DNA of 64,000 nucleotides from NCBI RefSeq assembly GCF_005222845.1, contig NZ_STFZ01000005.1:124001-188000 (forward strand), in the 5' to 3' direction. The stretch's first letter is position 1. Every line of letters begins with the position of its first letter. Of this stretch, positions 6,805 through 24,467 are shown in pieces. Made by a program: the position numbers and the translations under genes. This DNA comes from Rhizobium sp. FY34. Its GTDB lineage: Bacteria > Pseudomonadota > Alphaproteobacteria > Rhizobiales > Rhizobiaceae. Below the pieces are notes generated by a model. It saw only the letters and a list, made by a program, of their open reading frames with translations. It was not told the origin of the DNA and did no database searches.

Positions 6805-7653
6805 ATGACCGATTACATCATGACGCTTCGCTGCAACAATAGAAGTGGCATTGTTGCCGCCATTGCCGGACGGATCGCCCGCGAGGGCGGTGATATTACC
6901 GAGGCACACCAGTTCGACGATCCGGAAACCGGCATGTTTTTCATGCGGGTGGCCTTTCGTCTCGAGAGTGCGATCGACCCTCTGCGGGCAGGCCTTGGCG
7001 AGGATATCGCACGGTTTGGCCTAGACCTGACACTTCGTCCGGCGGGAAGCAAACGCAAGGTGCTGCTTCTGGTGTCGAAATTCGACCATTGCCTCGGCGA
7101 TCTTCTCTACCGCGCGCGCATCGGAGAGTTGAACATAGAGCCGGTCGCCATTGTCGGCAATCACGCCCGCGAAACACTGAACCTGACCCTACTGGGGCAG
7201 ATCCCCTATCACCACCTGCCCGTCACCAAAGACAATAAGGCCGAGCAGGAAAATGCGGTGCGCCACCTGATCGAGGAGACAGGCGCCGAACTGGTCGTAC
7301 TCGCCCGTTATATGCAGATCCTGTCCGACGCGTTTTCCGCATTCCTGTCGGGCCGCTGCATCAATATCCACCACAGCTTCCTGCCCGGCTTCAAGGGCGC
7401 CAAACCCTATCACCAGGCGCACAGAAGGGGCGTGAAGATGATCGGCGCAACGGCCCATTATGTGACCGGCGATCTGGATGAAGGGCCGATCATCTGCCAG
7501 GATGTCGAGCCGGTCAGCCATGCCGATACACCGGACGATCTGGTGCGCAAGGGGCGCGACATCGAGCGGCGCGTACTGGCCCGCGCTGTTGCCTGGCACC
7601 TGGAAGATCGCGTATTGTTGAACAAGGACAAGACCGTCGTATTTGCCAAATGA
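6805..7653 (+). CDS. purU: Formyltetrahydrofolate deformylase
   Basis: A 282-residue PurU. Residues 1-80 form an ACT-like domain and about 85-270 the formyltransferase fold, with the IVGNHA strand, the catalytic [11 protein letters not shown] histidine segment and the [17 protein letters not shown] loop carrying the catalytic Asp. It hydrolyses 10-formyl-THF to formate and THF. Its place between a dioxygenase and a LigM-like demethylase suggests it regenerates free THF from one-carbon units stripped off methoxy groups, rather than serving purine synthesis. It lies 132 bases after the dioxygenase and 24 bases before the next gene. Confidence 0.93.
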
Positions 7654-7677
7654 CGTCGTCTGCTTGAGGAGGGGCGC

Positions 7678-8535
7678 ATGCGGATCGGCTTTTTGGGGTA
7701 TGGAGAAGCAGGCCGCGCCTTTCACGAAGGCCTGACGAGACCGGATCTGTCGGTCCTTGCCTATGATCACGCGCTGCGCGGCCAGGCTAATGGCGACATG
7801 CGCGCAGCCATGACGGAACGCGGTGCGGCAGTGGTTGAAACCGCGGGTGAGCTTGCTACTGCCGACTGGATCTTCAGCGCCGTAACCGCCGACCAGAGCC
7901 TTGCCGCCGTCGCAGACCTTGCGTCCCATCTGAGACGGGGACATCTGCTGATCGACATCAACTCGGTCTCGCCGGAGCGCAAGCGGGCAACGGCATCGCT
8001 GGTGGCGCGTTCAGGGGCCGACTATCTCGACATGGCAGTGATGGCGCCGGTTCACCCGCGCCGGCACGCAACGCCGGTGTTGATTGCAGGGCCTCTGGCC
8101 GAGCCGCTTTTGCCAAAGCTGACAGCGCTTGGGTTTTGCGCAGAAATTGCCGGCCCGACGATCGGTGCGGCAACGGCCATCAAGATGGTCCGCTCCCTCT
8201 TCGTCAAAGGGCTTGAGGCGCTGACCGTGGAGACGCTGCTTTCCGCGCAGGCCTCCGGCTGTTACGACTATGTCCTGGCCTCGCTGTCCTCCTCCTATCC
8301 GGGCCTCAACTGGCCGGATTTTGCCGCCTATCAATTCGAACGGACGCTGCGCCATGGCGAAAGGCGCGCCGCCGAAATGCGTGAAAGCGCCGAGACATTG
8401 GCAGCTCTTGGCCTGCAGGGCACGCTGGCAGACGAGATCGCCGATGTACAGGCAGCCATGGGACAGTGCGGACTTGGCGCGGAAACCGATCTGCATGATG
8501 TGGTGAAAGCCAGCCTGAAGAAGCGCATGTCCTGA
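7678..8535 (+). CDS. NAD(P)-binding oxidoreductase with DUF1932 C-terminal domain
   Basis: A 285-residue beta-hydroxyacid-dehydrogenase-like protein. The N-terminus IGFLGYGEAG is a Rossmann dinucleotide motif as in 6-phosphogluconate dehydrogenase. The middle DINSVSPERK strand and the AATAIKMVRS helix, whose Lys is in the usual catalytic position, match the family; the C-terminal half fits DUF1932. Homologues often sit in aromatic degradation operons, but the reaction is not established. GGAGGGGC lies just before the ATG. It probably handles a ring-cleavage product or a hydroxyacid derived from one (inference). Confidence 0.7.
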   Translation: MRIGFLGYGEAGRAFHEGLTRPDLSVLAYDHALRGQANGDMRAAMTERGAAVVETAGELATADWIFSAVTADQSLAAVADLASHLRRGHLLIDINSVSPERKRATASLVARSGADYLDMAVMAPVHPRRHATPVLIAGPLAEPLLPKLTALGFCAEIAGPTIGAATAIKMVRSLFVKGLEALTVETLLSAQASGCYDYVLASLSSSYPGLNWPDFAAYQFERTLRHGERRAAEMRESAETLAALGLQGTLADEIADVQAAMGQCGLGAETDLHDVVKASLKKRMS

Positions 8536-8568
8536 CACAGCCGATGATAGGCTTGCCTTACCGGGCGT

Positions 8569-8577
8569 GTTATACAG
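8569..8577. promoter_or_regulatory. Imperfect TGTATACA-type box upstream of the GntR gene
   Basis: TGTTATACA, the core with one inserted T, lies about 70 bases before the chosen GntR start and is followed by GA, as in the better boxes. It is a candidate autoregulatory site. Confidence 0.35.
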
Positions 8578-8648
8578 ACGAGAGGTACGCGCACGGCGCG
8601 CAGGCGATGGCGAGCGAGGCATCGGCAGGAATGAGCAGGGAAGCAGAC

Positions 8649-9383
8649 ATGAAGCAGGGGGAAGCGGCCACGCATGGCCGGAGGGCCGTTATCGAGTTGC
8701 GGGAACGGATCTTGAGCGGCGAGTTGCAAGGGGGAACCCGGCTGTTCGAAGTGCCACTGGCGGAACTGCTCGATATTTCCCGCACCCCTGTCCGCGAGGC
8801 CCTGTCACGGCTGGCTGAAGAAGGCCTGCTCGACCGGTTGCCGAGTGGCGGCTTCATCGTGCGGCGCTTTGGCTTCACGGATGTGGCCGATTCAATCGAA
8901 GTGCGTGGCGTGATGGAGGGCATGGCGGCAAGAGTTGCAGCAGAACGCGGCGTCGCGCCGGAACTGATGGCCGAGATCAAGGAAACGGTAGCCCGGCTTG
9001 ACGCCTGTTTCGGCGAGGATGCCGACGATCTCGACTTCGACACCTATGCGGATCTCAACGAGATTTTCCACAAACAGATGGCGGGGCTTTGCGGCAGCGA
9101 CGTTATCCGCCGCGAAGTGGAACGGGCGAGTGCCCTGCCCTTTGCCTCGCCCTCCGCCTTTCTGCCCAACCGCTCGGACATCATGGCGTTTCGCCGTTCG
9201 CTGCGCACGGCGCAGGAGCAGCACCGGGCGCTGGTGCGCGCCATAGAGCAGCGCGAGGGCGCGCGGGCTGAGGCCATTGCGCGCGAACATGCGCGCACGG
9301 CCCGCAACAATCTTGAATACATTTTGCACGAAGACCCCTCACTCCTCGACAAGGTCAAGGTTCTGGCGCTCGTCCAGGCCTGA
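8649..9383 (+). CDS. GntR-family transcriptional regulator, FCD subfamily
   Basis: A 244-residue regulator with an N-terminal winged helix (recognition helix within LLDISRTPVREALSRLAEEG) and an all-helical FCD effector domain of about 150 residues. FCD regulators usually bind small organic acids in a metal-containing pocket and repress nearby catabolic genes. The start at 8649 is chosen because AGGGA precedes it by seven bases; upstream in-frame ATGs at 8544, 8607 and 8631 have weaker signals, and the earlier part overlaps the putative operator. The repeated TGTATACA boxes in this cluster are probably its targets, by proximity and by the family's preference for short palindromes. Confidence 0.88.
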   Translation: MKQGEAATHGRRAVIELRERILSGELQGGTRLFEVPLAELLDISRTPVREALSRLAEEGLLDRLPSGGFIVRRFGFTDVADSIEVRGVMEGMAARVAAERGVAPELMAEIKETVARLDACFGEDADDLDFDTYADLNEIFHKQMAGLCGSDVIRREVERASALPFASPSAFLPNRSDIMAFRRSLRTAQEQHRALVRAIEQREGARAEAIAREHARTARNNLEYILHEDPSLLDKVKVLALVQA

Positions 9384-9501
9384 TCCGGTTTGTCTGAGCG
9401 TTTTCAAGGCGCCACCCTGCGGCGTCTTAGCTTCTGCATGCCTGAAAATCTGTCGGACCGGATGATTTTGCACTTGCAAATCATCGCGCTTCGTCGTTCT
9501 G

Positions 9502-9509
9502 TGTATACA
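9502..9509. promoter_or_regulatory. Candidate GntR operator before the O-demethylase gene
   Basis: TGTATACA followed by GGA lies 33 bases before the LigM-like start. The same eleven bases (TGTATACAGGA) recur before livJ at 15895, which supports a shared regulator. Confidence 0.6.
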
Positions 9510-9541
9510 GGAGACAATATCAATCGGGAGGAGGCACTCAG

Positions 9542-10954
9542 ATGAAATCCAGCTTGAGCCAGGTATTGGCAGATTCACGCAATGCCGTCGATTTGCTGCG
9601 CAACACCAAGGGCGGCATGTATGTATACCCGGTCGTCGCACCGGAATTTGCCAACTGGCGGAGCGAACAAGCCGCATGGCGCCATTCCGCCGTGCTATTT
9701 GATCAGTCGCACCACATGGACGAACTGATCGTCGAAGGCCCGGAAGCCGAAAAATTCCTCAGCCATCACGGCATCAATGCATTTTCGAATTTCGGCCTGA
9801 ACCGCGCCAAGCATTTCGTGCCGGTCACGCCCAATGGTCACGTCATCGGAGACCACATCATCTTCCGCGAACGCGAGGACAAGTTCATCCTCGTCGGCCG
9901 CGCCCCGACATCCAACTGGCTGATGTTCTGTGCTGCCTATGGCAAGTGGAATGTGCGCATCAAGCACGATCCGCGTTCGCCGTCGCGCCCCGAGGGCGAG
10001 CGCGTTCTGCGCACGCATTACCGCTTCCAAATCCAGGGACCGGATGCGCCGAAGATCTTTGAAAAGATGAATGGCGGACCGGTCCAGGAAATCAAGTTCT
10101 TCCACGTCGATTGGATCAATATCGGATCGAAGAAGGTGCAGGCGCTGCGCCACGGCATGTCCGGCGCACCGGGCCTGGAAGTCTGGGGTCCTTACGAGGA
10201 CAAGAGCTATATTCTCTCCTGCATTCTGGAAGCCGCAAAGGATGCCGGCGTCGATCTCGTGCGCTGCGGCAGCCGCGCCTATTCCACCAACACGCTGGAA
10301 TCGGGATGGATCCCCTCGCCTCTGCCGGGGATCTATACCGGCGACGGCATGATGGCGGCCTATCGCGATTGGCTGGGCGCCGACAGCTATGAAGCCATGG
10401 GCTCGATTGGCGGCAGCTTCGTCTCCGACAATATCGAGGACTATTACGTCAATCCGTTCGAGCTGGGCTACGACTTCTATATCGGCTGGAAGAAGGATGA
10501 CTTCATCGGCAAGGCTGCGCTGGAAAAGATGAAGACCCAGACCAACCGCCGCAAGGTGACCTTCGAGTGGAATGCCGAAGACGTGGTGGAGGTCATCGCA
10601 TCGGCCTTCCGGCCGGGCGAAGACCACTACAAGTGGATCGATTTCCCGCAGCCGAACTATGCCTCATCCAGCGCCGATCTGATCCTGCGCGACGGCAAGA
10701 AGGTGGGCATGTCGATGTTCAACGGCTATTCCTACAATGAGCGCTGCGTACTGTCGCTCGGCGTGGTGGATGCCGATGTCAAGGAAGGCGAAATCCTCAC
10801 GCTGGTCTGGGGTGAGCCGGATGGTGGCTCGGGTAAAACCTCCACCGAACGCCATAAGCAGGCCCATATCCGCGTCCGGGTTTCGCCAACCCCTTACGCA
10901 TCCCAGGCACGCGAAAGCTATGCCGACAGCTGGCGCACGAAGCGCCCTGCCTGA
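9542..10954 (+). CDS. ligM: Tetrahydrofolate-dependent aromatic O-demethylase (LigM/DesA family)
   Basis: A 470-residue member of the aminomethyltransferase (GcvT-like) fold. Long stretches match LigM of Sphingobium as I recall it: MYVYPVVAPEFANWR near the N-terminus, LFDQSHHM, HVIGDHIIF, RFQIQGP, RHGMSGAPGLEVWGPYE, NTLESGWIPSPLPGIYTGD and GGSFVSDNIEDYYVNP. Length is also the same (LigM about 471). LigM and DesA transfer the methyl group of vanillate, 3-O-methylgallate or syringate to THF, leaving a catechol and 5-methyl-THF. MetF-like, PurU and an extradiol dioxygenase nearby fit this chemistry. GGAGG precedes the ATG. Which methoxybenzoate is used cannot be decided by eye. Confidence 0.88.
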   Translation: MKSSLSQVLADSRNAVDLLRNTKGGMYVYPVVAPEFANWRSEQAAWRHSAVLFDQSHHMDELIVEGPEAEKFLSHHGINAFSNFGLNRAKHFVPVTPNGHVIGDHIIFREREDKFILVGRAPTSNWLMFCAAYGKWNVRIKHDPRSPSRPEGERVLRTHYRFQIQGPDAPKIFEKMNGGPVQEIKFFHVDWINIGSKKVQALRHGMSGAPGLEVWGPYEDKSYILSCILEAAKDAGVDLVRCGSRAYSTNTLESGWIPSPLPGIYTGDGMMAAYRDWLGADSYEAMGSIGGSFVSDNIEDYYVNPFELGYDFYIGWKKDDFIGKAALEKMKTQTNRRKVTFEWNAEDVVEVIASAFRPGEDHYKWIDFPQPNYASSSADLILRDGKKVGMSMFNGYSYNERCVLSLGVVDADVKEGEILTLVWGEPDGGSGKTSTERHKQAHIRVRVSPTPYASQARESYADSWRTKRPA

Positions 10955-11092: not shown

Positions 11093-11787
<695 letters not shown>

Positions 11788-11791
<4 letters not shown>

Positions 11792-12537
11792 GCCCCATCT
11801 CCCAGATAGATCGCCTTGACATCGGGATTGCGTGAAATCTCCTCGACCGTGCCTTCGGCAAACAGGCGGCCCGCCGCCAGAACCGAGATCCGGTCGGCAA
11901 AGGAAAAGACGAGATCCATGTCATGCTCGATCAGAACCACGGTCACATCGGCCGGCAGATCGCGCACGATGGACAGAACTTCGTGGCGATCCTCCTCCGG
12001 CACGCCAGCCGCCGGCTCATCCAGCAGCAGCACTTTCGGCTCAAGCGCGATGGCAAGGGCGATTTCCAGCAACCGCTGCTTGCCATAGGGCAGGCTCTTG
12101 GTCGGCAGGCACATGACATCGGCCAGACGGAAGCGTTCCATCAACGCGGCAGCCTCTTCGATCCCCGCCTTTTCAGCGGAAATTGCCCGCCAGATCCGCC
12201 GGCCTTCGCCTCGTCGTTCGCAAATTGCCAGCAAGGTGGATTCCAGCGGCGTCAGGTCACCAAACAGCTGATTGATCTGGAACGTGCGCGCCAGGCCCCG
12301 TTTCACACGGGCAAAGGATGTCGTTGCAGTGACATCCTCGCCCGCCAGAAGAATGCGCCCGCTGCTCGGCGTCAAAGCGCCGGTCAACAGATTGATGATC
12401 GTCGTCTTGCCGGCACCATTCGGGCCGATCAGCGCATGGCGCGCGCCGGGCCGAATGGTGAGCGAGACCTCGTTGGTGACGACAAGGCCACCGAAGCGCT
12501 TGACGAGAGCCTGAGTTTCGAGCGCCGGCACACTCAT
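11788..12537 (-). CDS. livG: Branched-chain-type ABC transporter ATPase LivG
   Basis: A 249-residue cytoplasmic ATPase. Walker A is GPNGAGKT and Walker B VLLLDEP; the signature reads LPYGKQR instead of the usual LSYGEQR of LivG, a modest change. It pairs with LivF on the LivHM permease. Start and stop overlap the neighbours in ATGA style, showing a tightly coupled operon. Confidence 0.9.
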
Positions 12538-13568
12538 GGTCTGTCCTCCACAGGCTTCAGACTGGCCGGATCCGGCCCCATGCCGAGCCGGCTGCGCAGA
12601 CGTGCGAAAAGCCAGACCGGATTGACCCGGTCGCGCCCGAGCAGCACCAGCACGACGAGGATGAGGCCGATCCAGAACATCCAGTATTGCGGCGTGACGA
12701 CCGAAAGCCAGGCCCGCAAGAGGGTGAAGATGACGGCACCGACAATGCCGCCATAGAGATAGCCGACACCGCCGAGCACCAGCACGAGAAGCACATCTGC
12801 CGAGCGGTGAAAGGCGAGCACGTCCGGTGAAACAAAGCTTGTCGTCTGGGTGAGCAGCGCGCCGGCCGCACCGGCATAGAAGGCGGAAATCGTGTAGATG
12901 ACGACGATGCGCCGGTTGGGAGCAATGCCCAGCATCGCGGCGCGGGTGTCGTTTCGCTTGATCGCCTTCAGCGACAGGCCGAAGGGCGAATTGACGATAC
13001 GCCTTGCGATGAAGGTGAGCACAAACAGCGATGCCAGGCAGTAGAGATAGCCGGTGCGGCCCCAGAGATCGAATTCAAAGAGACCGGCCACCGGCTCGAT
13101 CATGATGCCGCTCAAGCCGTCGGCCCCGCCTGTGAGCCAGGAGGCCTGGTTTGCCGCCTCCGCCAACAGCATGCTGACACCGAATGTCGTCATCAGCCGT
13201 GTGAGATCCGAGCCGCGCAGCACAAGAAAGCTGGTCGCAAGCCCCACAAGCCCAGAAACCAGACCGGCCAGCAGTAGGCCCATCAGGGGTTCGGCCACCA
13301 GATGCAGCGCCGCAAGACCAGCCACATAGGCGCCAACACCGAAGAAGGCGGCATGGCCGAGCGACAGGATGCCGGCATAGCCGACGATGAGATCAAGCGA
13401 GACGGCAAACAGGGCCAGAATGGCAATCTCTGCCAGTAGCAGCTGTTGCGAGGGAAAGACGAAGGCGACGGCCAGCGCCGCCAGCCAGAAGCAGATTTCG
13501 ACAAGGCTCCAGCGGCTCTTGCGCTTAAGGAACCCGGTTGCCTGATCTTTTGCGAGGTCGGGCTTCAT
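12534..13568 (-). CDS. livM: Branched-chain-type ABC transporter permease LivM
   Basis: A 344-residue inner-membrane permease with about nine or ten hydrophobic segments. It has the LivM hallmark stretch GYAGILSLGHAAFFGVGAYVAG near residues 64-85. It overlaps livG at its 3' end and livH at its 5' end by four bases each. Confidence 0.92.
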   Translation of the reverse strand: MKPDLAKDQATGFLKRKSRWSLVEICFWLAALAVAFVFPSQQLLLAEIAILALFAVSLDLIVGYAGILSLGHAAFFGVGAYVAGLAALHLVAEPLMGLLLAGLVSGLVGLATSFLVLRGSDLTRLMTTFGVSMLLAEAANQASWLTGGADGLSGIMIEPVAGLFEFDLWGRTGYLYCLASLFVLTFIARRIVNSPFGLSLKAIKRNDTRAAMLGIAPNRRIVVIYTISAFYAGAAGALLTQTTSFVSPDVLAFHRSADVLLVLVLGGVGYLYGGIVGAVIFTLLRAWLSVVTPQYWMFWIGLILVVLVLLGRDRVNPVWLFARLRSRLGMGPDPASLKPVEDRP

Positions 13569-14425
13569 CGGCCGCCCTCCCGGAAAAACAGCCCATTCGG
13601 GCGAAGGATCAGGAAAAGGATCATCACCGCATAGATGATGAAGGCCCCAAGAGACGGGATGTAATACTTGCCAGCGACATCGGCTATGCCGAGCAGCATG
13701 GCGGCCAGAAACGGCCCGGTGATCGAGGATGTGCCGCCGATCGTCACGACGATCATGAAATAGATGAGATATTTCAGCGGAAAGTTCGGATCGAGCCCGA
13801 GCAGTTCCACGCCCAGCGCGCCGCCGAGGCCCGCAAGGCCGGAGCCGAGCGCGAAGGTCATCACAAAGATCAGCGACACATTGATGCCAAGCCCGCGCGC
13901 CACGCGGCCATCATCAACGGCAGCGCGCAGCTGGCTGCCGATGCGGGTGCGGGTCAGGGCCGCCTGTAGCGCAATGGTGAGAAGCGCGCAGATGACGATG
14001 ATGAAAAGGCGATAGCGGCCAATGCCGACGCCCAACAGCGTGAAGCGGCCGGACAGTTCCGGCGGAAGCGCGATCAGCTGCTGCTGGCCGCCCATCACAT
14101 AGTCAATGCCAGCAACGGCCATGAAGACGAGACCGATGGAAAACAGCACCTGATCGAGATGCGGTGCCGCATAGAGCCTGCGGTACAATGTGACCTCCAG
14201 AAGCCCGCCCAGCGCTGCAGAAACGAGGAAGGCTGCCGGCAGGCACCAATAGAATGAGATGCCGTAGCGGTTCATCATCACGACAGTGATATAGCCGCCG
14301 GCCATGGCAAAAGCGCCATGCGCCAGATTGACGAAATTCATCAGGCCGAGCGTGACGGCGAGCCCACAAGCCAGCACGAAAAGCAGCATGCCATAGGCGA
14401 TACCATCGAACAGAATGGTCAGCAT
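13565..14425 (-). CDS. livH: Branched-chain-type ABC transporter permease LivH
   Basis: A 286-residue permease. The N-terminus shows the LivH pattern (GLMNFVNLAHGAFAMAGGY), and multiple hydrophobic helices follow to the C-terminus. It forms the membrane channel with LivM. It is separated from livJ by 180 bases that include a hairpin, so the binding protein may be made in excess over the membrane parts. Confidence 0.92.
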   Translation of the reverse strand: MLTILFDGIAYGMLLFVLACGLAVTLGLMNFVNLAHGAFAMAGGYITVVMMNRYGISFYWCLPAAFLVSAALGGLLEVTLYRRLYAAPHLDQVLFSIGLVFMAVAGIDYVMGGQQQLIALPPELSGRFTLLGVGIGRYRLFIIVICALLTIALQAALTRTRIGSQLRAAVDDGRVARGLGINVSLIFVMTFALGSGLAGLGGALGVELLGLDPNFPLKYLIYFMIVVTIGGTSSITGPFLAAMLLGIADVAGKYYIPSLGAFIIYAVMILFLILRPNGLFFREGGR

Positions 14426-14504
14426 CGGTACTTCCTGGCAATCATGAATATCAAAGCAAAGAAACCACGAACACTCGAGGTTTATATTTTAAATCATAGA
14501 CTTA

Positions 14505-14525
14505 CGGGAGCGCATACCGCTCCCG
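14505..14525 (-). terminator. Attenuating hairpin between livJ and livH
   Basis: CGGGAGCG (14505-14512) pairs perfectly with CGCTCCCG (14518-14525) around a five-base loop. It lies 80 bases past the livJ stop and 80 before livH. There is no U-run. It may stabilise livJ mRNA or terminate part of the transcripts. Confidence 0.5.
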
Positions 14526-14605
14526 CATCTACTTTGCGTGGCGAACCGGTCGGGAAGACGGAGCAAGACCCCCATACTTCACGGTCCTTGCCGCTTGCGC
14601 CCTGT

Positions 14606-15775
14606 TCAGGGCGTGTTCGGGTCGCGCACCTTGGGGAAGGTTGCGAATTCGACGTTGTAGAGCTCGCCACCCACTGATTTCACCTCGCGCATATAGATAT
14701 CCTGCACGATGTCACGGGTCTTGGCATCGATGGTGATGGGGCCGCGCGGGCTGATCCAGGACATGCCCTTCATCGCCTCGATCAACTTGGTGCCATCCGT
14801 ATCGCCCTTGGTCTTCTCAAGTGCTGCATAGGCCAGCGCCATGGCATCATAACCACCAACAGACATGAAGTTCGGCCGCATATTGTTGTTGGCCTTGCGC
14901 ACCTCGGCAACGAAGGCCTTGTTTTCCGGGCTGTCATGGTTTGCCGAATAGAAGTGCCCGGTAATCACGCCAAGTGCTGCATCGCCCATGCCGTTCAGGA
15001 GGTCGTCATCGGTCACGTCACCGGTGGCAATCAGCTTGATGCCGGCATCGCGCAGGCCACGCTCGACGAATTGCTTCATGAAGATGGATCCGACGCCCGA
15101 TGGCACGAAGACGAAGACCGCATCCGGCTTGATGTCGCGCACGCGCTGCAGGAAGGGCGCGAAATCCGGGTTCTGCAGAGGCACGCGCACGGCCTCGAGG
15201 ATTTCACCGCCATCCTTCTTGAACTGGTCGGTAAAGCCCTTTTCGATATCGATGCCGGGGCCGTAATCGGTCACCAGTGTCACGACGCGCTTCAGCCCGT
15301 TCTTGGCAGCCCAGGTGGCGACAGGCACTGCCGATTGCGGACCGGCCATGCTGGTGCGGGTGAAGAATTCCGATTTCTGGGTGATCACCGAGGTCGTGGC
15401 AGAGGTGATGATGGCGGGAACCTTGGCCTGGTTCAATACGGGCGCGACAGACAGGGCAAGCGGTGTCAGCCCGAAGCCCATCAGCAGCGATGCGCCATCC
15501 TTGACGACCAGTTCCTGGGCGATGCGGCGGGTCTGATCGGCCGTGCCCGCATCATCGCGCAGCACCACTTCTACCTTCTTGCCGGCAACCGTGTTGCCAT
15601 GCAGCGCCTGATAGGCCTTGATGCCGGCTTCCACCTGGCGGCCGGTTGAGGCAAATGGCCCGGTCATCGGCAGGACAAGACCGATCTTGACGCTTTCCTG
15701 CGCCTGAGCATTGGACAGGAACAGGCCGCAGACGGCAGCCCCGGCCATGAACACACGTCTTGATAAGGATGCCAT
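14606..15775 (-). CDS. livJ: Periplasmic binding protein of the branched-chain/aromatic acid ABC transporter
   Basis: A 389-residue type I periplasmic binding protein (LivJ/LivK fold; KIGLVLPMTGPFASTGRQ begins the mature domain near residue 31). The signal sequence contains SRRVFMAG, close to a twin-arginine motif, with cleavage likely after AQA near residue 25. It captures substrate for LivHMGF. Gene position beside the demethylation cluster and a TGTATACA box upstream suggest an aromatic acid ligand. A GGAGGAG site precedes the ATG. Confidence 0.88.
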   Translation of the reverse strand: MASLSRRVFMAGAAVCGLFLSNAQAQESVKIGLVLPMTGPFASTGRQVEAGIKAYQALHGNTVAGKKVEVVLRDDAGTADQTRRIAQELVVKDGASLLMGFGLTPLALSVAPVLNQAKVPAIITSATTSVITQKSEFFTRTSMAGPQSAVPVATWAAKNGLKRVVTLVTDYGPGIDIEKGFTDQFKKDGGEILEAVRVPLQNPDFAPFLQRVRDIKPDAVFVFVPSGVGSIFMKQFVERGLRDAGIKLIATGDVTDDDLLNGMGDAALGVITGHFYSANHDSPENKAFVAEVRKANNNMRPNFMSVGGYDAMALAYAALEKTKGDTDGTKLIEAMKGMSWISPRGPITIDAKTRDIVQDIYMREVKSVGGELYNVEFATFPKVRDPNTP

Positions 15776-16023: not shown

Positions 16024-17748
16024 TTACTTCTTCTGCCAGCTCTTCACCAACTCGTCGTAATTCACGGTGATCGGCTTTTCCTTCTCGTTTGCAATCTTCA
16101 GCTGCGGCGCCAGGTTCCCCTTGGCAACGGCATCCTTGTTCCAATAGGCCAGATCATGCTCTGCTGCGAGCTTCGGGCCGATATCGCCTTGAACACCCGC
16201 GCGCTCAAGACGCTGAAGCACCTTTTCCTGCTCGCCGCACAGCGAATCCATGGCTGCCTGCGCGGTCTTTGCACCCGAGGATGCATCGCCGATCGCCTGC
16301 CACCACAACTGCGCCAGCTTCGGATAATCCGGAACATTGGTGCCGGTCGGCGACCATTGCACGCGGGCCGGCGAGCGATAGAACTCGATCAGGCCGCCAA
16401 GCTTGGGCGCACGATCCGTGAAGCTTTTGTGCTGGACCGTCGATTCCCGGATGAGCGTCAGGCCGACATGGCTCTTCTTCACGTCCACCGTTTTCGATGT
16501 GACGAACTGCGCATAAAGCCAGGCCGCCTTGGCGCGGTCAACCGGCGTAGATTTCAGCAGCGTCCAGGACCCAACGTCCTGATAACCGAGCTTCATGCCG
16601 TCCTTCCAGTAGACACCATGCGGGCTGGGCGCGAAACGCCATTTCGGCGTGCCGTCCGCATTGACGACCGGCAGACCATCCTTGACCAGATCGGCGGTGA
16701 AGGCTGTGTACATGAACATCTGCTGGGCGATTTCACCCTGCGATGGCACAGGCCCGGATTCCGAGAAGGTCATGCCCTGGGCAGAAGGCGGTGCATAGGC
16801 CTTCAACCAGTCGAGGTATTTCTGGATGGCATAGACCGAGGCCGGGCCGTTGGTATCCCCACCGCGGGCGACGCAGGAGCCGACAGGACGCGACTTTTCA
16901 TCGACCTTGATGCCCCATTCATCGACCGGCAGACCGTTCGGCAGGCCCTTGTCGCCGTTGCCGGCCATGGAGAGCCAGGCATCGGTGAAACGCCAGCCGA
17001 GCGAGGGGTCCTTCTTGCCGTAATCCATATGGCCGAAGACCTTCTTGCCGCCTATTTCACGGCCGGTGAAGAACTCCGCGATATCCTCATATGCCGACCA
17101 GTTCACCGGCACGCCGAGGTCGTAACCATACTTCGCCTTGAAGTCGGCCTTGTTCTTTGCGTCGTTGAACCAGTCGTAACGGAACCAGTATAGGTTGGCG
17201 AACTGCTGGTCCGGCAACTGGTAGAGTTTGCCGTCCGGCGCCGTGGTGAATTTCAGACCGATGAAATCCTGCAAGTCGAGGCCGGGATTGGTGACGGCCT
17301 TGCCTTCGTTCGCCATCCAGTCAGTCAGCGAGCGGGCCTGCTTGTAGCGCCAGTGCGTGCCGATAAGGTCTGAGTCGTTGACATAGGCGTCATAGATGTT
17401 TTCGCCGGACTGCATCTGCGTTTGCAGTTTCTCGACCACGTCACCCTCGCCGATCAGATCATGGGTGACCTTGATGCCGGTGATGGCGGTAAAGGCTGGA
17501 GCCAGCACCTTGGCCTCATATTCATGCGTGGTGATGGTTTCGGAAACCACCTTGATCTCCATGCCGGCAAAAGGCTTTGCCGCATCGACGAACCACTGCA
17601 TCTCCTTTTCTTGGTCGGCTCTTGTCAGAACCGACATATCCTTGACTTCCTTGTCCAGGAACTGCTTTGCCGCGTTCATATCGGCAAAGGCCGTCCCCGT
17701 CATGGCCAGCAGCATGGCTGCGGTCGTCGTCATCAGGTGCCGTCGCAT
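16024..17748 (-). CDS. glpV: Glycerol ABC transporter substrate-binding protein GlpV
   Basis: A 574-residue exported binding protein with a signal sequence (MRRHLMTTTAAMLLAMTGTAFA). Family size and gene order match GlpV of the Rhizobium glycerol transport operon glpSTPQUV. It would deliver glycerol, or a related polyol, to the GlpPQ permease. The ATG at 17748 is chosen over the longer frame because GGAGGAG lies just before it and the signal peptide starts there. It is the last gene of the operon, followed by a clear terminator. Confidence 0.88.
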   Translation of the reverse strand: MRRHLMTTTAAMLLAMTGTAFADMNAAKQFLDKEVKDMSVLTRADQEKEMQWFVDAAKPFAGMEIKVVSETITTHEYEAKVLAPAFTAITGIKVTHDLIGEGDVVEKLQTQMQSGENIYDAYVNDSDLIGTHWRYKQARSLTDWMANEGKAVTNPGLDLQDFIGLKFTTAPDGKLYQLPDQQFANLYWFRYDWFNDAKNKADFKAKYGYDLGVPVNWSAYEDIAEFFTGREIGGKKVFGHMDYGKKDPSLGWRFTDAWLSMAGNGDKGLPNGLPVDEWGIKVDEKSRPVGSCVARGGDTNGPASVYAIQKYLDWLKAYAPPSAQGMTFSESGPVPSQGEIAQQMFMYTAFTADLVKDGLPVVNADGTPKWRFAPSPHGVYWKDGMKLGYQDVGSWTLLKSTPVDRAKAAWLYAQFVTSKTVDVKKSHVGLTLIRESTVQHKSFTDRAPKLGGLIEFYRSPARVQWSPTGTNVPDYPKLAQLWWQAIGDASSGAKTAQAAMDSLCGEQEKVLQRLERAGVQGDIGPKLAAEHDLAYWNKDAVAKGNLAPQLKIANEKEKPITVNYDELVKSWQKK

Positions 17749-17836
17749 AAGGTCTCCTCCCAAATTTGCGATTGCAGATTTTTTCCTATTACCGCCTGCC
17801 GGTTCCCATCCGGCAGGCCTTCCGGCCTTTTGCGGC

Positions 17837-18118
17837 CTAGACGAAGCGGAACACGCCGATCGCATAGACTACAGACAAGGCCAAAGCCCACCACAGGCTC
17901 GGCCCGCCAAGGCCAAGCCAAGCAAGATGAATGAAGGCCGAACCGAGCAGCGACACGAACAGACGGTCGCCGCGCGTCGTCTCGAACCTTAAAATTCCAG
18001 TGCGCGGGCCACCACCCGGCGAGACATATTCCCACACGCCCATGGCCGCGATCAGCGTGAAGATCACGATGAAGAAGATCGCTGTCGGCAGCGTCCAGGC
18101 CATCCATGAAAAGTCCAT
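17837..18118 (-). CDS. glpU: Small membrane protein GlpU of the glycerol transporter (DUF2160)
   Basis: A 93-residue protein with two or three hydrophobic segments (about 8-28, 54-68 and 72-92). DUF2160 proteins occur only beside glycerol-type ABC transporters and their exact role is unknown. ATG 18118 has GGAGG upstream; it lies 13 bases after glpQ and before glpV, the usual rhizobial order. Confidence 0.85.
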   Translation of the reverse strand: MDFSWMAWTLPTAIFFIVIFTLIAAMGVWEYVSPGGGPRTGILRFETTRGDRLFVSLLGSAFIHLAWLGLGGPSLWWALALSVVYAIGVFRFV

Positions 18119-18131
18119 CGCGAGCCTCCTG

Positions 18132-18950
18132 TCACACGCGGCCAAGGGCAAAGCCCTTGGCGATGTAGTTGCGGACGAAATAGATGACGAGCGCGCCGGG
18201 TATGATGGTGAGTACGCCGGCAGCGGCCAGCACGCCCCAATCCATGCCCGATGCCGAGACGGTGCGCGTCATCGTGGCCGCAATCGGCTTGGCATCCGTC
18301 GTCGTCAGGGTCCGGGCAATCAGCAGTTCGACCCAGGAAAACATGAAGCAGAAGAAGGCAGCGACACCAATGCCGGATGCGATGAGCGGCATGAAGATCT
18401 TCACGAAGAATTTCGGGAAGGAATAGCCGTCGATATAGGCGGTTTCGTCGATTTCCTTCGGCACGCCGGACATGAAGCCTTCCAGAATCCACACTGCCAG
18501 CGGCACGTTGAACAGGCAGTGGGCGATGGCAACGGCGATATGCGTATCGATGAGACCGAAGGCCGAATAGAGCTGGAAAAAAGGCAGGGCAAACACTGCC
18601 GGCGGCGCCATGCGGTTGGTCAACAGCCAGAAGAACAGGTGCTTATCGCCCAGGAACCGGTAGCGCGAGAAAGCATAGGCTGCCGGAAGTGCTGCCGACA
18701 CCGAAATCACCGTGTTCAGTACGACATAGATGATCGAGTTGATATAGCCATTATACCAGGACGGATCGGTAAAGATCACCGCGTAATTGCGCAGCGTCGG
18801 TTCCTGCGGCCAGAGCGAAAAGGCCCCGAGGATTTCGGAATTCGTCTTGAAGCTCATATTGGCGAGCCAATAGATCGGCAGGATGAGGAAGACGATGTAG
18901 ATCGTCGGAACCAGAAAACCGAATCGGCTGCGTGTGCCAATGCTGCTCAT
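18132..18950 (-). CDS. glpQ: Glycerol ABC transporter permease GlpQ
   Basis: A 272-residue inner-membrane permease of the MalG type with six hydrophobic helices. The EAA-type cytoplasmic loop reads EIDETAYIDGYSFPKFFVKIFMPL, which contacts the ATPases. It partners GlpP. The start at 18950 is chosen for its GGAGG site; ten bases separate it from glpP. Confidence 0.9.
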   Translation of the reverse strand: MSSIGTRSRFGFLVPTIYIVFLILPIYWLANMSFKTNSEILGAFSLWPQEPTLRNYAVIFTDPSWYNGYINSIIYVVLNTVISVSAALPAAYAFSRYRFLGDKHLFFWLLTNRMAPPAVFALPFFQLYSAFGLIDTHIAVAIAHCLFNVPLAVWILEGFMSGVPKEIDETAYIDGYSFPKFFVKIFMPLIASGIGVAAFFCFMFSWVELLIARTLTTTDAKPIAATMTRTVSASGMDWGVLAAAGVLTIIPGALVIYFVRNYIAKGFALGRV

Positions 18951-18960
18951 GGCGCCCTCC

Positions 18961-19830
18961 TCACGTCTGCTCTGCATCGCTCTGCGTCATCACGGTGTAG
19001 AACACCCATGACAGCAGAAGGATGATCAGGAAGTAGATGATCGACATGGCCGCCGCAGGTCCCAGATCGAACTGGCCGACCGCCATCTTGACAAGATCGA
19101 TGGACAGGAAAGTAGTGGAATTGCCCGGCCCGCCACCGGTCACCACGAAAGGTTCGGTGTAGATCATGAAACTGTCCATGAAGCGCAACAGGACGGCAAT
19201 CAGCAGAACCCGCTTCATCTTCGGCAACTGGATGTAGCGAAACACCGACCAGCGCGACGCACCATCGATCTTGGCCGCCTGGTAATAGGCATCCGGGATG
19301 GACACGAGACCGGCATAGCAGAGCAGCACGACAAGGCTCGTCCAGTGCCAGACATCCATGACGATGACGGTTGCCCAGGCATCCACCGGGTCCTGCGTAT
19401 AATTATAATCGATGCCGAGATTGTTGAGCACATAGCCGAGCAGGCCGATATCGACGCGACCGAAAACCTGCCAGATGGTGCCGACGACATTCCAGGGGAT
19501 CAGCAGCGGCAGCGCCATCAGCACAAGGCAGACTGGCACACCCGGCCCGGTCTTTGGCATATTGAGCGCGATGAAAATGCCGAGCGGCACTTCGATGGCC
19601 AGAATAATGCCGGAAAAGACAAGATTGCGCGCAAGCGCATCCCAGAAGCGGTCGGAGGTGAGGATTTCGACGAACCAGTCGGTTCCGGCCCAGAAGAACT
19701 GGTTATTGCCGAACGTATCCTGAACCGAATAGTTCACCACCGTCATCAGCGGAATGACGGCGGAAAACGCCACCAGAACCAGAACCGGCAGCACCATGAA
19801 CCAGGCCTTGTTATTCCATGTCGTGTTCAT
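18961..19830 (-). CDS. glpP: Glycerol ABC transporter permease GlpP
   Basis: A 289-residue permease of the MalF type with six predicted helices. The EAA loop is seen as PDAYYQAAKIDGASRWSVF. It forms the channel with GlpQ. It starts three bases after the glpT stop and has a GGAGG site, consistent with one transcript from glpD to glpV. Confidence 0.9.
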   Translation of the reverse strand: MNTTWNNKAWFMVLPVLVLVAFSAVIPLMTVVNYSVQDTFGNNQFFWAGTDWFVEILTSDRFWDALARNLVFSGIILAIEVPLGIFIALNMPKTGPGVPVCLVLMALPLLIPWNVVGTIWQVFGRVDIGLLGYVLNNLGIDYNYTQDPVDAWATVIVMDVWHWTSLVVLLCYAGLVSIPDAYYQAAKIDGASRWSVFRYIQLPKMKRVLLIAVLLRFMDSFMIYTEPFVVTGGGPGNSTTFLSIDLVKMAVGQFDLGPAAAMSIIYFLIILLLSWVFYTVMTQSDAEQT

Positions 19831-19833
19831 GTC

Positions 19834-20904
19834 TCAGCCCTCCATGCCGACGCGCCAGCTATCGGCGAAAATGCCGATGGCGGCCGGATCGAACGTCACG
19901 CGTGCATCCGCGGGGATCTCGTCATCCTCGGCCAGAACGATGGACAGAGGTTGACCGCAGAAACTTGCCCGCACGATCTTCTGGCGGCCGATATCCTCCA
20001 CCTTGCCGATATCGATCGCCATGCCATCGCGCCCCAACCGCACGAATTCCGGCCGGATGCCCAGTTCAAGCTTTGCACCGCGCGCGAGTTTTGGCACGCC
20101 GGACAGGGCAATGGCCTGCTCGCCGATCCGCGCTAAAGCACCCTCCACCGTCACCGGCATGACATTCATGCCCGGCGAACCGATGAAATAGCCGACAAAG
20201 GTATGGCTTGGCCGCTCAAAGAGCTCCGCCGGCGTGCCGATCTGGACGATCTGCCCGTCATGCATGACGACAACCTTGTCGGCAAAGGTCAGGGCTTCCG
20301 TCTGGTCATGCGTGACATAGACCATGGTGAAGCGCGAGCTGCGATGCAGCCGCTTCAACTGCGAGCGCAATTGCCATTTCATATGCGGATCGATGACGGT
20401 GAGCGGTTCGTCAAACAGGATGGCATTGACATCCGAGCGCACCAGCCCCCGGCCGAGCGATATCTTCTGCTTCTGGTCGGCCGTCAGCCCCTGCGCACGG
20501 CGATTGGCCATGGATGCAAGGTCTGTCATCTCCAGAATGTGCGTAACGCGGCTTCGCACCTCAGCTTCCGGCACATGCCGGTTGCGCAGCGGAAAGGCCA
20601 GATTATCAAACACCGTCATCGTGTCGTAGACGACGGGGAACTGGAAGACCTGGGCAATGTTGCGCGCCTCGGTGGAGAGCGTCGTCACGTCCTTGCCGTC
20701 AAACAGTATGCGTCCATCGGATGGGTGCAGGAGGCCGGAAATGATATTGAGAAGCGTGGTCTTGCCGCAGCCGGAAGGGCCAAGCAGCGCATAGGCGCCA
20801 CCATCCTCCCATTCATAGTGAACTTCCTTCAGCGCATAATCGCCGGCAGCCTTTGCCTTGGCGCTGTAGGCGTGGCGGATATGGTCGAGGGTGATACGGG
20901 CCAT
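19834..20904 (-). CDS. glpT: Glycerol ABC transporter ATPase GlpT, with degenerate signature motif
   Basis: A 356-residue MalK-type ATPase with a C-terminal regulatory (TOBE-like) domain. Walker A GPSGCGKT (42-49), the Q-loop Gln88, Walker B ILFDEP (162-167) and the H-loop His199 are intact. The ABC signature is not LSGGQ but LTADQ (140-144), followed by KQK. Its partner GlpS has the complementary defect. Together they predict one working and one degenerate ATP site. The gene name denotes the rhizobial ABC subunit and not the enterobacterial glycerol-3-phosphate antiporter of the same symbol. ATG 20904 is preceded by GAGGAGG. Confidence 0.9.
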   Translation of the reverse strand: MARITLDHIRHAYSAKAKAAGDYALKEVHYEWEDGGAYALLGPSGCGKTTLLNIISGLLHPSDGRILFDGKDVTTLSTEARNIAQVFQFPVVYDTMTVFDNLAFPLRNRHVPEAEVRSRVTHILEMTDLASMANRRAQGLTADQKQKISLGRGLVRSDVNAILFDEPLTVIDPHMKWQLRSQLKRLHRSSRFTMVYVTHDQTEALTFADKVVVMHDGQIVQIGTPAELFERPSHTFVGYFIGSPGMNVMPVTVEGALARIGEQAIALSGVPKLARGAKLELGIRPEFVRLGRDGMAIDIGKVEDIGRQKIVRASFCGQPLSIVLAEDDEIPADARVTFDPAAIGIFADSWRVGMEG

Positions 20905-20914
20905 GTCGTCCTCC

Positions 20915-21997
20915 TCACGCCGCGACGGTGTCAGCAGAAACGAGCGCACGGCCCGTCTGCGGATCGAATGCCATCAGATGGCGGGCATCCAGATGCACAT
21001 CGAGCATCTGGTCCGGATCGATATCGTGAATGCCATGGGTGAGCAGGACCCATTTTTCGCCGGCAAATTCCAGATGGATGAAGCTTTCCGAGCCGGCGAT
21101 TTCCGACACTTGCGTGCGCGCCGAAAGGGGATGCGTAAAGGGCCGTGGCTTCAGCATCAAATGATGCGGCTGGAAGGCGATGGTGACCGGGCCGATCGGC
21201 ATCCCGGTCAAATGCGCCGGCACCGGCATCACCGGTCGGCCCTCCAGCAGAAGGCTTGCGCCTTCATGCACCAGTTCGATCGTATTCAAAGGCGGATCGG
21301 CAAAGGTGCGCGCCGTCAGGAGATCGGATGGCTTGCGATAGACCTCGATCGTCTCGCCGAACTGCGTGACCCGACCTTCAGCAAGCGTGGCCGTGCTGCC
21401 GCCAAGCAGAAGCGCTTCCGAAGGTTCGGTCGTTGCATAGACGAAGATCGCTCCGGAGGCCGCAAAGATCTTCGGCAGTTCCTCGCGCAACTCCTCGCGC
21501 AACTTGTAGTCGAGATTGGCGAGCGGCTCATCAAGCAGAACCAGATTGGCATTCTTGACGATGGCGCGGGCGAGCGCCGTGCGCTGCTGCTGGCCACCGG
21601 AAAGATTGAGCGGCATGCGATCAAGATAGGGCGATAGACGCAGAAGATCGGCGGCCTTGCGCACCTCGCGATCAATCACTGCCGCATCCTTGCCGGCAAT
21701 GCGCATGGGCGATGCGATATTCTCGTACACACTCAGCGCCGGATAGTTGATGAACTGCTGGTAGACCATGGCTATATTGCGCTTCTGCACCGGCATGCCG
21801 GTCACATCCACGCCATCCACGAAGATCTGGCCTTCCGTCGGGCGATCAAGCCCGGCCATCAGGCGCATCAGCGAGGTCTTGCCCGAGAGTGTCGGGCCAA
21901 GCAGGACGTTCAGCGTTCCCCGCTTGAGTGCGAGATTGGTCGGGCGGATGTGATAGTCACGCCCCACCATCTTCGACACATTGCGCAATTCCAACAT
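20915..21997 (-). CDS. glpS: Glycerol ABC transporter ATPase GlpS, lacking the H-loop histidine
   Basis: A 360-residue MalK-type ATPase. Walker A GPTLSGKT (34-41), signature LSGGQ (132-136) and Walker B LVLLDEP (151-157) are canonical. In the switch region VYATTEPSEA the histidine normally found in VYVTHD is Thr190. With GlpT it should form an asymmetric heterodimer. It lies 84 bases after glpD and 10 before glpT. Confidence 0.9.
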   Translation of the reverse strand: MLELRNVSKMVGRDYHIRPTNLALKRGTLNVLLGPTLSGKTSLMRLMAGLDRPTEGQIFVDGVDVTGMPVQKRNIAMVYQQFINYPALSVYENIASPMRIAGKDAAVIDREVRKAADLLRLSPYLDRMPLNLSGGQQQRTALARAIVKNANLVLLDEPLANLDYKLREELREELPKIFAASGAIFVYATTEPSEALLLGGSTATLAEGRVTQFGETIEVYRKPSDLLTARTFADPPLNTIELVHEGASLLLEGRPVMPVPAHLTGMPIGPVTIAFQPHHLMLKPRPFTHPLSARTQVSEIAGSESFIHLEFAGEKWVLLTHGIHDIDPDQMLDVHLDARHLMAFDPQTGRALVSADTVAA

Positions 21998-22080: not shown

Positions 22081-23592
22081 TCAGGCGGCGTGGCGGGCTC
22101 CGGTCATATAGTCTTCCAGACCGGCAGCCTGCGCAGCGGTCAGGAACAGCCCCTGCTTGGTGCGGCGCCAGAGAACATCCTCTGCCGTCACCGCCCATTC
22201 CTTGTCGATCAGCCAGCGAACCTCGGCCTCATAGAGCGAGCCGCCGAAATGGTAACCAAGATCAGCGGCAGTCTCGGCCTTGCCCAGCATGACGCCCGCA
22301 TCGGTTCCATAGCAGCGCACCAGGCGTTCGGCATGGACCCTCGTGATGAACGGCGAGTGCGACAGAAGCCGCTTCACCTCCGCCTCAAAGCCAAGAACCG
22401 CGAAATCGCCGCCCGGCAACCGGCTGCCTGCCGTCCATGATGCGCCTCGGGTGCCAATCGCACCACCAATCTTTTCCAGCGCATGTTCGGCCAGCCGACG
22501 ATAGGTGGTCAGCTTGCCGCCAAACACATTGAGAAGCGGCGCGCCCTCCGTCTCATCGAGCTTCAGCACATAGTCGCGCGTGGCTTCCTGCGCCTTCGAC
22601 GCGCCATCATCATAAAGCGGCCGCACGGCCGAATAGCTCCAGACGATATCGGCCGGACGCACCGGCTCGGCGAAATACTCACTTGCGGCATTGCAGAGAT
22701 AATTCACCTCTTCGTCGCTGATCCTGATGGCCTTCGGATCACCGGTATAGTCGCGGTCCGTGGTGCCGATCAGCGTGAATTCGCCCTCATAGGGAATGGC
22801 AAAGAAGATGCGGTTATCGGGATTCTGGAAAAAGTAAGCGCGTGCATGATCGAACTTCTTGCGCACCACGATATGGCTGCCCTGCACGAGGCGCACATTG
22901 TGGGCATTGTTGCGCCCCATGGCGCCGGCCAGCACCTGATCGACCCATGGGCCGGCGGCGTTGACAAGCATCCGGGCGCGGATCGTCTGCGTCTCGCCGC
23001 TCAGCGTATGCGCCACCGTCACGGCCCAGGCATCGCCATCTCGGCGCGCAGACGTCACCTTGTGACGCGACAGGATGGTGGCACCACGGATCTGCGCATC
23101 CCGTGCATTCAACACGACGATGCGCGCGTCATCCACCCAGCCGTCAGAATATTCAAAAGCGCGCCCAAACAGCGGCTTCAGCGGTTTTCCCGCCTCGTCA
23201 CGGCGCAGATCGATTGTTTTCGTTGCCGGCAGAAGCTTGCGGCCGCCCAGATGATCATAGAGAAACAGTCCAAGCCGGATGAGCCAGGCAGGGCGCACGC
23301 CGCCCTTCTGGTAGGGCAGCACGAAACGCAGCGGCCAGATGACATGCGGCGCCATGGCCCAGAGCACTTCGCGCTCCATCAGCGCCTCGCGCACCAGACG
23401 GAATTCATAGTGTTCGAGATAGCGCAATCCGCCATGGATCAGCTTTGTCGAACCCGAAGAGGTGCCGGAGGCAAAATCATTCATCTCGGCCAGCGCAACC
23501 GAATAGCCGCGACCTGCCGCATCGCGGGCAATGCCGCAGCCATTGATGCCGCCGCCAATCACAAACAGATCGTAAACGCGCCCTTCAGCCAT
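22081..23592 (-). CDS. glpD: Aerobic glycerol-3-phosphate dehydrogenase
   Basis: A 503-residue flavoenzyme oxidising glycerol-3-phosphate to dihydroxyacetone phosphate at the membrane and passing electrons to quinone. The N-terminal FAD motif reads FVIGGGINGCGIARDAAGRG; the typical DDAR, YYEGEF-like and GGKLTTYR blocks follow. The start at 23592 aligns with the FAD domain; the longer frame lacks support. It is the first enzyme gene after glpR. A close paralogue lies at 61569-63086. Confidence 0.95.
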   Translation of the reverse strand: MAEGRVYDLFVIGGGINGCGIARDAAGRGYSVALAEMNDFASGTSSGSTKLIHGGLRYLEHYEFRLVREALMEREVLWAMAPHVIWPLRFVLPYQKGGVRPAWLIRLGLFLYDHLGGRKLLPATKTIDLRRDEAGKPLKPLFGRAFEYSDGWVDDARIVVLNARDAQIRGATILSRHKVTSARRDGDAWAVTVAHTLSGETQTIRARMLVNAAGPWVDQVLAGAMGRNNAHNVRLVQGSHIVVRKKFDHARAYFFQNPDNRIFFAIPYEGEFTLIGTTDRDYTGDPKAIRISDEEVNYLCNAASEYFAEPVRPADIVWSYSAVRPLYDDGASKAQEATRDYVLKLDETEGAPLLNVFGGKLTTYRRLAEHALEKIGGAIGTRGASWTAGSRLPGGDFAVLGFEAEVKRLLSHSPFITRVHAERLVRCYGTDAGVMLGKAETAADLGYHFGGSLYEAEVRWLIDKEWAVTAEDVLWRRTKQGLFLTAAQAAGLEDYMTGARHAA

Positions 23593-23661
23593 TCCCCACC
23601 CATCGCACTGCAGCAAACCTGAGCACTTGCGAAACAACTAAACTGTAATTCGAAATATATT

Positions 23662-23679
23662 CGAATGTCAAACGAATGC
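23662..23679. promoter_or_regulatory. Candidate GlpR operator before glpD
   Basis: The 18-mer CGAATGTCAAACGAATGC starts 70 bases upstream of glpD and just touches the glpR stop codon. It lies in a run of TTCG/CGAA elements from 23648 to 23695. The identical 18-mer precedes the second glpD. Confidence 0.65.
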
Positions 23680-24467
23680 TATTCGCCATTCGTATGACCT
23701 GTCTTCACCGATGTTTCGATCAGAGCCACATCTTGCGCTGCACAGACCGCTCGGACACTTGCGGACGGACAGTGATCGCAGATGAAACTATGCACCTGCG
23801 AGATATGGCCGATACGCACCGGCGCCGTGCGTTCGAACTTGGAAGCGTCGGTCACCAGGATTACATGCCGCGCATTGGCGATGATCGCCTGCGCCACCTT
23901 GACCTCGCGGAAATCGAAATCGAGCAGCGCGCCATCTTCATCGATGGCCGACACGCCGATCACGGCAAAATCCACCTTGAACTGACGGATAAAATCGACA
24001 GCCGCCTCGCCGACGATACCGCCGTCGGAGCCGCGCACCACACCACCGGCAATAACCACCTCGATAGCGGGGAAGACCCGCAAGCGATTGGCCACGTTGA
24101 TATTGTTGGTGATGACCATGAGTTCCTTATGATCCACCAGAGCATCGCCGACCGCCTCGGTTGTCGTGCCGATATTGATGAAGAGTGAGGAATTGTCGGG
24201 GATCATCGCCGCCGCTGCACGGCCGATCGCCTGCTTTTCGGCAGCCGCCATGGAGCGGCGCGCCTCGTATTTGACATTCTCATTGCCGCTTGGAAACACA
24301 GCGCCGCCATGGATGCGGTTCAAGGCCCGTGTCTCGCACAGATCGTTGAGATCCTTGCGAATGGTCTGCGGCGTGACCGTGAACCGGACCGCCAATTCCT
24401 CGACCAAAACCCGCCCATGCTCCTTGGCAAGAGCCATGATCTCGACCTGGCGCGCGGAAAGCAGCAT
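23679..24467 (-). CDS. glpR: DeoR-family glycerol regulon repressor
   Basis: A 262-residue DeoR-type repressor: N-terminal helix-turn-helix (VEELAVRFTVTPQTIRKDLNDLCE, about 22-45) and a sugar-phosphate-binding domain with the NIGTTTEAV loop near 98-106. GlpR proteins release DNA on binding glycerol-3-phosphate. It is on the same strand as and directly upstream of glpD, as in other rhizobia, and probably controls the glp operon and itself. Confidence 0.9.
   Translation of the reverse strand: MLLSARQVEIMALAKEHGRVLVEELAVRFTVTPQTIRKDLNDLCETRALNRIHGGAVFPSGNENVKYEARRSMAAAEKQAIGRAAAAMIPDNSSLFINIGTTTEAVGDALVDHKELMVITNNINVANRLRVFPAIEVVIAGGVVRGSDGGIVGEAAVDFIRQFKVDFAVIGVSAIDEDGALLDFDFREVKVAQAIIANARHVILVTDASKFERTAPVRIGHISQVHSFICDHCPSASVRAVCAAQDVALIETSVKTGHTNGE

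Follow-up and report, generated by a model that had tools for sequence, protein, structure and literature searches.

Introduction

MalK, SugC and MsmX, the ATPases of CUT1-type importers, are each encoded by one gene that is used twice, and the resulting dimers have two identical complete ATP sites. Glycerol import by GlpSTPQUV, a system with two ATPase genes, is reportedly the subject of work by Ding et al. 2012. The available part of PMC7912956 describes the glycerol operon of R. leguminosarum VF39, in which GlpSTPQUV forms an ATP-driven glycerol importer, as well as a homologue in C. metallidurans, and in this part an asymmetry of the ATP sites of either system is not mentioned. Growth of C. 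metallidurans on glycerol was not lost on deletion of its homologue (PMC7912956, same part) and, therefore, GlpSTPQUV is not the sole glycerol route in every host.

A composite ABC site consists of Walker A and B, Q-loop and H-loop of one subunit and the signature of the other (PMC7756269, in excerpt). Loss of the catalytic Glu is a hallmark of the degenerate site of exporters (PMC7544095; PMC7756269), in which single motif changes often matter little (PMC7756269), as far as the excerpts of these papers go. For importers, a degenerate site was inferred in the proteins RbsA and NupO in the accessible section of PMC11466899. A search of open-access PMC gave no title on site asymmetry in GlpST or LivF/LivG; such titles may exist.

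Results

The window analysed here, a stretch of 64,000 nucleotides from Rhizobium sp. FY34, contains the genes glpR-glpD-glpS-glpT-glpP-glpQ-glpU-glpV on its minus strand, in the order known for the GlpSTPQUV glycerol importer. The two MalK-type ATPases are encoded by glpS (20915..21997, 360 aa) and glpT (19834..20904, 356 aa from ATG), which are separated by 10 bases as re-read from the DNA. Upstream are glpR, coding for a DeoR/GlpR-type regulator (23679..24467; best model PRK10906 with 275 bits, below the cut-off of 331 bits), and glpD, coding for glycerol-3-phosphate dehydrogenase (22081..23637, family match). Downstream are the permease genes glpP (18961..19830) and glpQ (18132..18977), both matching BPD_transp_1, followed by glpU for a small membrane protein (17837..18151, DUF2160) and glpV for a probable substrate-binding protein (16024..17865, the longest ORF, the true start probably being further in). 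The genes were assigned by profile or family matches except for glpV, which was assigned by its position and by an annotated neighbour in locus L176; the domain and family model search with the GlpV of the window gave no family match. Compared by genes alone, the locus is like that of R. leguminosarum VF39 in its genes, their order and the presence of two ATPases. Among the matches listed, GlpS was 71.8–73.2% identical to five R. leguminosarum sequences over 94–99% of its length and ~ 72–74% identical to Rhizobium plasmid copies. A glpK gene is found at 54747-56216 on the plus strand of the window, ~ 30 kb from the glp operon and not behind glpV; on an annotated Azospirillum plasmid, glpK follows glpV.

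GlpS and GlpT share about 30% identity, and their ATP-site motifs, all on the minus strand, differ. The Walker A motif of GlpS, GPTLSGKT (residues 34-41; 21875..21898), contains Lys40 and has Leu instead of Gly at position 4 of GxxGxGK, a point missing from the earlier note on this DNA. Gln80 of the Q-loop (21758..21760), the signature LSGGQ (residues 132-136; 21590..21604), which would serve the Walker site of GlpT, and the Walker B motif LVLLDE with Asp156 and the catalytic Glu157 (21527..21544) are present, and at the H-loop position the codon ACC (21428..21430) encodes Thr190 in place of His. In GlpT, Walker A (GPSGCGKT, residues 42-49; 20758..20781), the Q-loop Gln, re-read from the DNA as Q88, and His199 of the H-loop (20308..20310) are intact. 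The signature is altered to LTADQ (residues 140-144; 20473..20487) and followed by KQK. Walker B and D-loop of GlpT, AILFDEPLTVID (20389..20424), include Asp165 and Glu166; the D-loop reads VID and not NLD, with the Asp retained.

The alignment of GlpS with the MalK-type chain 1v43 of known structure had no gaps at the H-loop, and that of GlpT with 2it1 had none at the signature. AlphaFold single-chain models were obtained with a mean pLDDT of 89.2 for each protein; the model of GlpS matched E. coli MalK 2r6g_B over its full length (Z 38.0, rmsd 2.4, 356 aligned residues) and that of GlpT matched MalK 2awn_B (Z 37.4, rmsd 2.3, 348 aligned residues). The complete MalK fold, C-terminal domain included, is present in both models, as in MalK, SugC and MsmX, but instead of a single ATPase gene for a homodimer there are two adjacent, unlike genes.

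Conservation was analysed in several sets of relatives, and glpS and glpT were neighbours at the loci covered. Of 385 genomes sampled across the class, 45 had a GlpS match with at least 46% identity, the next match by E-value having 40%. GlpT was present at 135/135 Alphaproteobacterial loci with a GlpS of at least 45% identity; these loci include places fetched twice and gave 107 distinct pairs, selected by BLAST identity and score and not by motif, and LSGGQ was found in 108/108 GlpS rows of this set. At 80 named loci, GlpS had LSGGQ and T190 throughout (80/80), and altered signature and His were present in all 78 GlpT in view; at the remaining two loci the contig ends before GlpT. The complementary layout was also found in 20/20 pairs from non-alpha Pseudomonadota. 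The Alphaproteobacteria, relatives, named loci, the 20 non-alpha loci and two plasmid records were then pooled to 229 distinct pairs. Not a single GlpS of this pool had the H-loop His, its position being taken by T in 213, S in 15 and A in one sequence (Thr/Ser in 228/229), and all GlpS had the Walker A Lys, the Q-loop Gln, the DE of Walker B and LSGGQ, while position 4 of Walker A was non-Gly in 218/229. None of the GlpT had LSGGQ and all had the H-loop His and the DE of Walker B; the second signature glycine was replaced by Asp in 226/229 and both signature glycines were replaced in 228/229, as frequent as the Lys-Gln after the signature motif and the D-loop VID (228/229 each). Because the GlpS filters for the 80 loci and for the 229 pairs required SGG, the LSGGQ counts in these sets are partly by construction; free of this filter are the BLAST-identity set and a search from the GlpT side without signature filter, in which 230/230 pairs conformed and LSGGQ was present in 230/230 GlpS. 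Locus L235, missed in the latter count owing to a long open frame, conforms too. In-match stops occurred in a few rows of the genome search (G331, G022, G469, G494), and counted frames are stop-free by construction.

The re-read DNA and the 229 pairs agree with the earlier note in that GlpS has LSGGQ but Thr190 for the H-loop His and GlpT has the His but LTADQ as signature. The alignment of homologues that it had proposed as a check gave no pair with intact motifs at both sites, LSGGQ plus H-loop His in each subunit being found in 0/229. Chance or sequencing error as cause of the motif changes was ruled out by their conservation in 229/229 pairs. In an alignment of 21 GlpS, T190 was invariant, and in 20 aligned GlpT T141, A142, D143, K145 and Q146 were invariant, whereas five different letters occurred at position 144. 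Since LTAD-x-KQ and T190 do not vary while position 144 does, the altered motifs look selected and not drifting, and the conservation of the replacements (Thr/Ser in 228/229, Asp in 226/229) argues for a fixed design and not for decay.

The 229-pair count leaves out a plasmid record of R. leguminosarum 248 (pRle248c, L171) in which the GlpT frame is broken. At 7470-10152 of this record there are breaks in the glpS and glpT frames, and the annotation of glpD is short. The breaks are due to either sequencing error or decay; the motifs in the pieces are the same as in intact pairs. Other phyla were covered by the plasmid collection alone, with one record from Actinomycetota (Nonomuraea gerenzanensis, L170), which has a GlpST-like pair with His replaced by Ala and the signature LDAGR.

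According to the known geometry of ABC dimers, the changes in Gly4 of the GlpS Walker A, in the GlpS H-loop and in the GlpT signature come to lie in one composite site, altered signature and H-loop being combined there as in exporters, and the site of GlpT Walker motifs, GlpT H-loop and GlpS LSGGQ has no motif change. The altered D-loop of GlpT (VID) presumably belongs to the same composite site as the H-loop change of GlpS, and we take the conserved Asp of GlpT to replace the signature glycine that meets the gamma-phosphate. The proposal of one complete and one doubly damaged site is, thus, still the best reading of the motifs, whereas dimer and chemistry are predicted. The likeness to TAP and CFTR, which had also been pointed out, holds in part: like the degenerate-site exporters TAP, TM287/288, ABCC and Pdr5, GlpST combines one consensus with one degenerate composite site, but the Walker B Glu, typically lost in the degenerate site of exporters, is retained in 229/229 GlpS. 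Retention of Glu157 separates GlpST from typical exporter sites and is common to LivF (DE in 36/36).

The asymmetry had been regarded as unusual for an importer, a view that finds no support here: the same layout is found in LivF/LivG-type pairs (31/36) and in CUT2-type fused ATPases. The window itself encodes a LivF/LivG-type pair of this complementary layout (11093..12537, minus strand), with LSGGE and VEQ in LivF and LPYGK and EHD in LivG, which was named via operon and motifs, the UrtE model giving 213 bits and, thus, less than the cut-off of 286 bits. The livFGMH-J-like operon at 11093-15775 adjoins the glp operon. Of the 279 ABC candidates of the genome 150 were scored, GlpT not being among them. 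In this and other genomes, LivF-type ATPases had SGG and lacked the H-loop His in 36/36; their LivG-type partners had the His in 36/36 and an altered signature in 31/36, and in the other five a LivG with SGG stands beside a LivF without His. The names LivF and LivG rest on adjacency and motifs, with the operon read through for the window only. This count omits one row of 37, L209, which is of the peptide type. L339 was automatically scored as LivF with His, the His being one residue past the H-loop position, and L343, L354 and L357, which are outside the count because of alignment gaps, had the same layout on separate reading. GlpST and LivF/LivG are, therefore, alike in that one subunit has SGG without His and retains the Glu, and the other has His and mostly no SGG. 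They differ in ATPase length, LivF and LivG being short (in the window 232 and 249 aa), in the H-loop position, which is mostly Gln in LivF, in the partner signatures, e.g. LPYG and LSHG, and in the Q-loop Gln, which is changed to Glu in 20/36 LivF, unlike in GlpS.

Six CUT2-type fused ATPases from stretches of the same genome had an altered signature and the His in the first half (6/6), and in the second half LSGGN (5/5 readable), no H-loop His (3/3 readable) and no Walker A Lys (6/6). Complementary motif loss is, thus, common to the CUT2 type (RbsA/NupO) and GlpST, but in the former a single chain contains both halves, the second of which lacks the Walker A Lys. In 6/6 fully readable peptide-type pairs or fusions from the same stretches, neither half lacked SGG or His; since both sites are intact there, unlike ATPases are not always asymmetric.

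Within CUT1, three further groups with two unlike ATPases (B, C and D) were reached via a weak GlpS relative. In group B (5 complete pairs and one cut by a contig end; loci L049, L172, L173, L177-L180, L187, L188), one subunit has the signature SGGE, Asp or Glu for the Q-loop Gln and Pro for the His; its partner has LGASE, LGGSE, MGGSQ or LSASE, the His and the D-loop NLE, and the changes are gathered in one composite site. Neighbouring genes are annotated as glutamine synthetase and GMP synthase at L172, and at L049 there is an asparaginase-like ORF, judged by reading of its translation. In group C (5 pairs; loci L181, L183-L186, L230-L232), one subunit has LSVNE and His and the other LSGGE and His, with Gly4 of Walker A changed in 4/5 of the latter. 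Group C is a half-way state, signature loss without loss of His, the reverse of which is seen in the five LivG with SGG. In group D (loci L192, L196, L200, L227, L228), one ATPase has LSGGE and Pro for His; its partner, with LAEGE and His, is encoded at the opposite operon end in both cases whose flanks were fetched (2/2); a third case, L200, is near a contig end. Groups B to D are rare, and the search for B and C gave 6/385 genomes at the cut-off, including G022, whose ATPase is ordinary.

CUT1-like ATPases without a partner in view had SGG, His and P-loop glycine intact in 27/27. These were hand-picked from the results of the GlpT-side search, with other ABC types excluded, and 14 of them are GlpS relatives; "without a partner" means that no second such ATPase was present in the stretch in view, and the partners in group D lie further off. 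It is only against these ATPases that the asymmetry of GlpST is unusual.

In a tree calculated after masking of the motif residues, the eight ATPase groups each formed one clade (a stray row still present in this tree was removed before the topology tests), and the altered-signature ATPases of groups B and C were sisters (support 100/99). All ATPases without H-loop His already stood together in the tree, with a support of 37/3. Holding together all altered-signature ATPases was not rejected (AU p 0.379), nor was holding together GlpS and GlpT (p 0.18) or placing all unpaired ATPases on one side (p 0.291). Since these topologies were not rejected, we do not claim convergence within CUT1.

Discussion

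We consider it likely, with a probability of roughly 0.8, that GlpS and GlpT of the GlpSTPQUV glycerol importer form an obligate heterodimer in which one ATP site is complete and the other degenerate; which of the two is complete and which degenerate is well supported by sequence. Walker A and B, Q-loop and His199 of GlpT, facing the LSGGQ of GlpS, would make up the complete, hydrolysing site. Walker A and B of GlpS with Thr190 and the altered P-loop, facing LTAD-x-KQ of GlpT, would make up the degenerate one, which probably binds nucleotide, since Lys40, Gln80 and Glu157 are retained, and in which hydrolysis would be slow or absent; with the catalytic Glu157 retained, some hydrolysis would be possible. 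As a complete site would be lacking in both homodimers, glpS and glpT are predicted to need each other. In the proposed cycle, GlpV would hand glycerol to GlpPQ and GlpS and GlpT would close on two nucleotides, of which only the one at the Walker site of GlpT would be hydrolysed; the Walker site of GlpS would retain its nucleotide in a structural or timing role, and the complete site would use one ATP in each cycle to power transport. Although the motifs of E. coli DppD are functional, two DppA-free structures of the complex showed ATP analogues on DppF alone (PMC12136057, in the part available), which argues that motifs do not fix nucleotide occupancy.

Alternatively, both sites could hydrolyse, with Thr/Ser of GlpS and LTAD of GlpT functionally replacing His and LSGGQ. 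Glu157, Lys40 and Gln80 are indeed found in every GlpS of the pool and the replacing residues are themselves conserved, as expected of a working site, but the loss of both signature glycines in nearly all GlpT and of the P-loop glycine in most GlpS, together with 27/27 unpaired CUT1-like ATPases that have SGG, His and this glycine, makes this unlikely. Considerably less probable still is that GlpS or GlpT is mainly a regulatory subunit, acting via its C-terminal domain or docking, and that the pump is independent of a closed heterodimer site. MalK-type ATPases carry a regulatory C-terminal domain and such a domain is present in both models; the LSGGQ of GlpS, however, is useful only to the site of GlpT and is strictly retained (108/108 and 230/230 in the sets free of the SGG filter). 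Drift, by which one ATPase copy of a duplicated pair would be decaying, is hardly credible, although several motifs of one site are changed and one plasmid record (L171) has interrupted frames, because the 229 counted pairs have open frames, their residues agree between Alpha- and other Proteobacteria and the replacement motifs are invariant.

Besides the predicted GlpS-GlpT heterodimer, the LivF/LivG-type, CUT2-type and further CUT1 pairs suggest that unlike importer ATPases often keep one site and rebuild the other. Tentatively, and with somewhat less than even confidence, we propose that complementary degeneration with the Glu kept is a recurrent rule for importers with unlike ATPases, the peptide type excepted, and that GlpST is a clean CUT1 case of it, with the second site rebuilt to a non-catalytic nucleotide site (Thr190 plus LTAD-x-KQ). 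Against a strict rule stand the peptide type with both sites intact, the SGG in 5/36 LivG and the presence of both His in group C. If the proposal is true, one ATP per cycle is enough to drive a MalK-type importer. A MalK-type homodimer, in which both sites change together, makes it difficult to find out if a cycle needs one or two hydrolyses; with GlpST, nature provides two partners of this fold whose sites can be altered one at a time.
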